A program made the position numbers and the translations under genes. A stretch of DNA of 64,000 nucleotides, taken from positions 1 to 64,000 of the forward strand of contig JAKPGJ010000027.1 of the NCBI GenBank assembly GCA_029550965.1, in the 5' to 3' direction. Source of the stretch: Bacillota bacterium. Lineage in GTDB: Bacteria > Bacillota > Clostridia > Oscillospirales > CAG-382. Numbering within the stretch: position 1 is the first letter of the stretch; the number at the start of each line of letters is the position of its first letter. Of this stretch, positions 34,233 through 35,596 are shown in pieces. Under the pieces are notes generated by a model. The model searched no databases. It was given only the letters and a program-made list of their open reading frames with translations, and was not told the DNA's origin.

Positions 34233-34265
34233 TAAAAAAATCCTGCAGTAATTATACTGCAGGAT
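34233..34265 (-). terminator. Attenuator terminator of the ilv-leu operon
   Basis: On the minus strand ATCCTGCAGT, a six-base loop, ACTGCAGGAT and seven T, between the leader peptide stop and ilvB. Its 5' arm can instead pair with ACTGTGGAT in leader codons 34-36 (34335-34327), forming an antiterminator. Confidence 0.88.
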
Positions 34266-34299
34266 CGCAATTTTAAATTTGGTTGAGCCTATTCTTATA

Positions 34300-34434
34300 C
34301 TAATCCGGCCTACCCCTACTTGCACTATCCACAGTATAATTAAAAAACGCGCCATCAATTAGACCTAGCACAATCACAGATAGGCCCACGATGACGCTAT
34401 TAATTATAATAATGGAAGCGCAAGATCCAAACAT
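34300..34434 (-). CDS. ilvL: Leader peptide of the branched-chain amino-acid operon
   Basis: A 44-residue reading frame with GGAG eight bases before its ATG, placed between the promoter and the attenuator. Codons 8-11 are four Ile codons in a row, followed by many Val, Leu and Ile codons to residue 26. It ends SRGRPD. As known for ilv and leu leaders, a shortage of these charged tRNAs would stall the ribosome in the Ile/Val/Leu stretch and leave codons 34-36 free to form the antiterminator. With ample supply the ribosome reaches the stop and the terminator forms. The RGRP near the end recalls E. coli LeuL. Confidence 0.85.
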   Translation of the reverse strand: MFGSCASIIIINSVIVGLSVIVLGLIDGAFFNYTVDSASRGRPD

Positions 34435-34476
34435 ATTTTTACTCCACCATAATTGCCATTAAAATTTAGTTTTGTT

Positions 34477-34506
34477 ATTATAACATAGCAAAATCCGGTT
34501 TGTCAA
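34477..34506 (-). promoter_or_regulatory. Promoter of the ilv-leu operon
   Basis: On the minus strand a perfect TTGACA (34506-34501), an 18-base spacer and a perfect TATAAT (34482-34477) with extended TGT. The start is near 34470, about 36 bases before the leader ATG. Confidence 0.85.
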
Positions 34507-35478: not shown

Positions 35479-35494
35479 TTAAAAAAGAATATAT

Positions 35495-35596
35495 CTGTCA
35501 GGGATACTGTGAAGAATATTGCTAATTTGGGCACTTGCAATATTCGGAGTATATAGTGCAACCGACCCTGCTGTATTTACAGCACTGTCTTTTTTC
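35495..35596 (+). ncRNA. c-di-GMP-II riboswitch with terminator
   Basis: The core strings TTTGGGCACTTG and AGTGCAACCGACC match the class II c-di-GMP aptamer. Nested helices are CAGGG/CCCTG, ATACT/AGTAT and GAATATTGC/GCAATATTC. GCACT in the hairpin loop pairs with the later AGTGC to give the class II pseudoknot. Behind it GACCCTGCTGT, loop ATTT, ACAGCACTGTC and a T run form a terminator that uses the 3' strand of the basal helix. Ligand binding would hold that strand and so favour read-through: an ON switch by inference. It controls the lipoprotein and CBM-protein genes. Confidence 0.88.

Follow-up and report, generated by a model that had tools for sequence, protein, structure and literature searches.

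A very probable ribosome-mediated transcription attenuator upstream of the ilvBNCD-leuA-cimA-leuCDB operon in a clostridial genome

Leader and operon at the ilv-leu locus

The window analyzed here is a 64,000-nucleotide stretch of a Bacillota bacterium genome (Clostridia, Oscillospirales, CAG-382; contig JAKPGJ010000027.1 of assembly GCA_029550965.1). It carries a nine-gene operon, ilvBNCD-leuA-cimA-leuCDB, with intergenic gaps of at most 42 bases, whose products are assigned by NCBIfam models to isoleucine, valine, and leucine biosynthesis. The elements of the locus, in the direction of transcription, are as follows:

34506-34477, minus strand: sigma-70-type promoter, TTGACA-18-TATAAT with a TG before the -10 element (12/12 consensus matches)
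34448-34442, minus strand: Shine-Dalgarno sequence of the leader open reading frame (ORF), GGTGGAG
34434-34300, minus strand: leader ORF of 44 codons, from ATG at 34434 to TAG at 34300; five relatives have a homologous peptide upstream of ilvB
34426-34399, minus strand: segment 1 (ATCTTGCGCTTCCATTATTATAATTAAT), limits approximate, predicted to pair with segment 2 in the minimum free energy fold and in pairing probabilities without a ribosome
34393-34350, minus strand: conserved hairpin inside the Ile/Val/Leu codons (RNAalifold, six leaders), possibly an RNA polymerase pause hairpin
34341-34327, minus strand: segment 2, the putative antiterminator strand AATTATACTGTGGAT, codons 32-36, pairing best with the terminator 5′ arm in six leaders
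34266-34239, minus strand: intrinsic terminator, 5′ arm 34266-34255 and 3′ arm 34250-34239, with a T run extending to about 34234
34166-32508, minus strand: ilvB, encoding the acetolactate synthase large subunit and opening the operon (TIGR00118, 714.8 bits, over the cut-off)
32494-23256, minus strand: ilvN, ilvC, ilvD, leuA, cimA, leuC, leuD, and leuB (NCBIfam models, over their cut-offs)

The leader ORF encodes MFGSCASIIIINSVIVGLSVIVLGLIDGAFFNYTVDSASRGRPD, a peptide with seven Ile, five Val, and three Leu residues, in which codons 8-11 specify four consecutive Ile and 14 of the 19 residues in codons 8-26 are Ile, Leu, or Val (binomial P about 1e-5 per 19-residue window at p = 0.25). Its codons 34-36 (ACT GTG GAT, 34335-34327) form the core of the putative antiterminator strand, ACTGTGGAT, and can pair with GATCCTGCAGT, the 5′ arm of the terminator. 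The terminator hairpin itself comprises 12 bp and a 4-nt loop (-19.1 kcal/mol, z -6.9), and the leader as a whole is folded more than expected by chance (z -5.8). Promoter, Ile/Val/Leu-rich leader, terminator, and the pairing of codons 34-36 had all been proposed, with correct coordinates, in a sequence-only reading of the window, and each was borne out. The parts lie in the order of an attenuator with workable spacing: a seemingly translatable ORF with a run of Ile, Leu, and Val codons, a strand overlapping the late ORF that is predicted to act as antiterminator by pairing with the 5′ arm, and an intrinsic terminator between the leader and the first structural gene.

Two further observations concern the surroundings of the leader. 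The ilvB Shine-Dalgarno sequence, AAGGAGG (34217-34211, minus strand), lies about 45 bases from the ATG (34166), and the intervening RNA contains a hairpin, GGGTCAAATACG...CGTATGTATTGTTGACC (-13.5 kcal/mol, z -1.7), which may bring the two together within the 34217-34166 region; the corresponding spacing is ordinary in the five relatives. On the plus strand, a cyclic di-GMP-II riboswitch (35493-35576, 72.9 bits against a gathering threshold of 53.5) precedes ORFs for a small lipoprotein-like product (35629) and a secreted-looking protein (35924).

Conservation of the leader in related genomes

A search for the leader peptide in 63 genomes of the family, complemented by a search for ilvB, found six leaders of this type, each directly upstream of ilvB and with the same architecture: those of the window genome (G000), two others from its genus (G042 and G043), two of genus g3 (G025 and G026), and one from g8 (G046). 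Promoter-like TTGACA and TATAAT elements, judged by eye, also precede the leader in the relatives. In other family members, ilvB is located within a leu operon or downstream of a T-box. When 394 genomes of the order were searched with a peptide profile, the only clear matches were the six known leaders; two additional matches (E 0.005-0.007) were weak and located inside long open frames.

The six peptides can be aligned from end to end, with M1, I10, L18, L23, I26, and F31 invariant and a mean column identity of 58%. Within the run, Ile, Leu, and Val replace one another, with 13 or 14 of them in the best 19 residues of every peptide. The C-terminal ends diverge entirely, those of the relatives being DKS, DKSRRLNR, DRLEKANRVTG, NKTKHC, and KKADCC. 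The leader of the window ends in RGRPD, and Escherichia coli LeuL holds RGRP. The sequence-only reading had seen in this shared motif a hint of constraint on the peptide or the RNA, to be checked by looking for a conserved SRGRPD ending in other clostridial ilv leaders; among the six leaders, however, RGRPD occurs in this genome only and in none of the five relatives. The likeness to LeuL is therefore most likely a coincidence, and the idea of a LeuL-type peptide whose RGRP ending is constrained was rejected, since the motif is not conserved among homologous leaders.

At the RNA level, RNAalifold applied to the six leaders returned two hairpins, namely the terminator, with four pairs changed on both sides, and a hairpin inside the ORF, with seven of 14 pairs changed on both sides and 92.9% of cells paired versus 15-48% in slid controls. 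The conserved pairing in the latter joins GGCCTA (34386-34381) to TAGGTC (34367-34362). The sequence-only reading had placed GGCCTA and a TAGGCC (34312-34307) correctly; the pairing that it proposed between them is not conserved, and neither this partner nor the downstream alternative ATAGGCTC was upheld. In each of the six leaders, ACTGTGGAT or its counterpart at this alignment position pairs best with the terminator 5′ arm; in any single leader this complementarity is modest, being equaled by 2-19% of dinucleotide shuffles. The two g3 leaders have the arm changed to GTCTTACAGT and the strand to ACTGTgaatAAGAC or GCTGTAAaGA, with pairing retained. Across these six related leaders, a small sample, three RNA features persist despite sequence change: the terminator, the late-ORF strand, and the ORF hairpin.

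These patterns bear on the possibility that the ORF product is an independently functioning small hydrophobic (membrane) protein, the hairpin serving only to end its transcript or as a partial terminator of the operon. Such a protein would fit the hydrophobicity and sequence conservation of the peptide, as well as the higher number of changes at codon position 3 across the leaders (262 versus 191 and 166). However, the C-terminus varies freely, while the complementarity to the terminator and the ORF hairpin are kept by paired changes, which argues against a stand-alone function of the peptide, as does the constant location of the ORF directly before ilvB. A small protein with its own function is therefore regarded as very unlikely.

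Alternative pairings and proposed mechanism

Ribosome movement was represented by masking the RNA as far as the ribosome's leading edge at each codon, with the transcript taken before the 3′ arm of the terminator had been made. Pairing was calculated at equilibrium, ignoring kinetics relative to RNA polymerase, and one version of the calculation, in which upstream RNA was allowed, lets pairs span the ribosome. At equilibrium, mean pairing probability between segment 2 and the terminator arm across the six leaders was 0.65-0.94 with the ribosome on Ile, Leu, or Val codons and 0.00-0.04 with the ribosome at or beyond segment 2, and the outcome was alike for assumed footprints of 8-17 nt. Scrambling of segment 2 reduced arm pairing to 0.03-0.33 with the ribosome on the same codons. 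In the leader of the window, stalls at codons 10-12 gave lower arm pairing in the downstream-only model; when upstream RNA was allowed, no such drop was seen at codons 9 and 13.

In three of the six leaders, including that of the window, the stop codon is situated well past segment 2, so that a ribosome at such a distant stop may leave segment 2 uncovered again. With the ribosome at the stop codon, pairing between segments 1 and 2 is predicted in the window leader, but some renewed arm pairing in G043 and G046, whose stops are likewise distant.

Taken with the conserved parts and modeled pairings, the locus is very probably a classical ribosome-mediated transcription attenuator controlling the nine-gene ilv-leu operon. 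Under this mechanism, a shortage of charged Ile tRNAs, and probably also of charged Val or Leu tRNAs, would cause the ribosome to stall on Ile, Leu, and Val codons 8-26, leaving ACTGTGGAT free to pair with the terminator 5′ arm; the terminator would then not form, and RNA polymerase would enter ilvB. With these amino acids plentiful, a ribosome over codons 30-45 would cover or pass ACTGTGGAT, allowing the terminator to form and transcription to stop. When the leader is not translated, segment 2 would fold back on segment 1 and the terminator would form, amounting to super-attenuation; in calculations with no ribosome, segment 2 pairs back upstream in four of the six leaders (G000, G042, G043, and G026, the protection in G026 originating in the 5′ untranslated part), though not in G046 and G025. 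The sequence-only reading had arrived at the same mechanism, and this core of it is supported, apart from the significance given to the RGRPD ending, the partner of GGCCTA, and the presumed rarity in Bacillota.

The role of the ORF hairpin is more speculative. Our guess is that a hairpin among the regulatory codons probably either makes RNA polymerase pause or prevents segment 2 from being sequestered while a ribosome is stalled. That the covarying hairpin is a dedicated part of the switch, acting as a programmed pause or as an insulator that frees the antiterminator strand during a stall at the first Ile cluster, is suggested tentatively and with somewhat more doubt than confidence. If this were true, the same codons would serve as both sensor and structural RNA, a layout unlike the usual 1:2 hairpin of enteric leaders; of all the parts, this conserved hairpin alone is possibly worth closer study.

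T-box and CodY regulation, which the sequence-only reading had named as the mechanisms that could displace attenuation, were both looked for. In an Rfam search of the leader, no family reached its cut-off, including the T-box family (RF00230), so that routine annotation would miss the attenuator; matches to manA-II and trpB were weak, far below the cut-offs, and were discarded. Control of the operon by a T-box, or by some other RNA that binds tRNA or a metabolite, with the ORF incidental, would have precedents in the T-boxes found immediately upstream of ilvB in other clostridia (L026, L027, L032, L033, L042, L119, and L121) and in T-boxes elsewhere in this genome. The best T-box match in the genome precedes an asparagine synthetase-like gene and another precedes a trpB-like gene (L127 and L128; genes judged by translation only), suggesting that the organism uses T-boxes for other amino acids. 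None of the five T-box matches in the genome, however, is located at ilv-leu, and the ORF and its Ile/Leu/Val run are conserved along with the alternative pairings, making an RNA of this kind extremely improbable as the regulator of the operon.

A DNA-binding regulator at the promoter might instead set expression for the most part, with the leader lowering read-through by a constant amount. The regulator search was directed at CodY only, which leaves this explanation some room; CodY, for which Bacillus subtilis and Lactococcus lactis served as positive controls, was not found in the genome, and a constant terminator would need no conserved Ile/Leu/Val run, segment 2, or internal hairpin. The probability given to such a regulator is accordingly very small, and ribosome-mediated attenuation remains the preferred reading.

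Comparison with known systems

Leader-peptide attenuation of branched-chain amino acid operons is textbook knowledge in enteric bacteria, where the E. coli ilvL, ivbL, and leuL leaders share the mechanism proposed here and the same regulatory codon classes. The sequence-only reading had considered such a mechanism notable for Bacillota, yet it is not exceptional there. In Listeria monocytogenes, the Rli60/ilv-leu attenuator is supported by mutation of its start codon, ribosome site, and terminator (PMC5864092). Like the leader of the window, Rli60 combines a branched-chain-rich leader peptide with a terminator and antiterminator before ilv-leu in a Bacillota genome; it differs in its 13-aa peptide, in having ilvD as the first gene, and in the additional action of CodY, the comparison being one of features and not of sequence (PMC5864092). 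Likewise, the attenuator of Staphylococcus aureus ilvD, supported by suppressor mutations and reporters, places a leader peptide and terminator, and no T-box, before a Bacillota ilv-leu operon, although its peptide is Leu-rich where that of the window is Ile-rich, ilvD comes first, and CodY is present (PMC5794164). Leader-peptide attenuation has also been predicted in L. lactis and streptococci and was described as common in Gram-positive bacteria (review, PMC6123439).

Outside this phylum, the Corynebacterium glutamicum ilvBNC attenuator is supported by mutations and involves terminator, antiterminator, and anti-antiterminator hairpins (PMC11857589). This leader (PMC11857589, PMC10272879) and other actinobacterial ilvB leaders (PMC1262725) are located before ilvB, as in the window, and were compared by layout and not by sequence.

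Other short ORFs also occur upstream of ilvB. Leaders of the Ruminococcus flavefaciens type (L029, L030, and L046) encode a different peptide, conserved among them and ending in SFCPNGALA, upstream of a terminator; the L046 peptide has partly lost the Ile/Val run (MNSMYFSSDDVIIADEVVNVSGCRLFSFCPNGALA) and retains the ending. A Lentisphaerae contig (L038) carries two tandem Ile/Val-rich short ORFs, each followed by a terminator, from about 430 to 60 bases before ilvB. Ile/Leu/Val-rich short ORFs with no evident likeness to that of the window, most of them with terminators, also precede ilvB in other clostridia and Oligosphaera (L017, L019, L024, L031, and L078). Attenuators before ilvB may have arisen several times.

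In other clostridia, the T-box leaders (RF00230) upstream of ilvB occupy the same operon position and have the same output, transcription attenuation; in contrast to the leader described here, in which RF00230 finds no match, their RNA binds tRNA directly and contains no ORF. The literature searched contained no paper naming this clostridial leader. It represents a branched-chain attenuator, supported by comparison, in a family of clostridia in which relatives use T-boxes or other arrangements at ilvB, and, because attenuator and T-boxes occur at the same gene, the family allows these two modes of sensing amino-acid supply to be set side by side. The leader itself is most likely a new but ordinary example of the attenuators known in E. 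coli and several Gram-positive bacteria.
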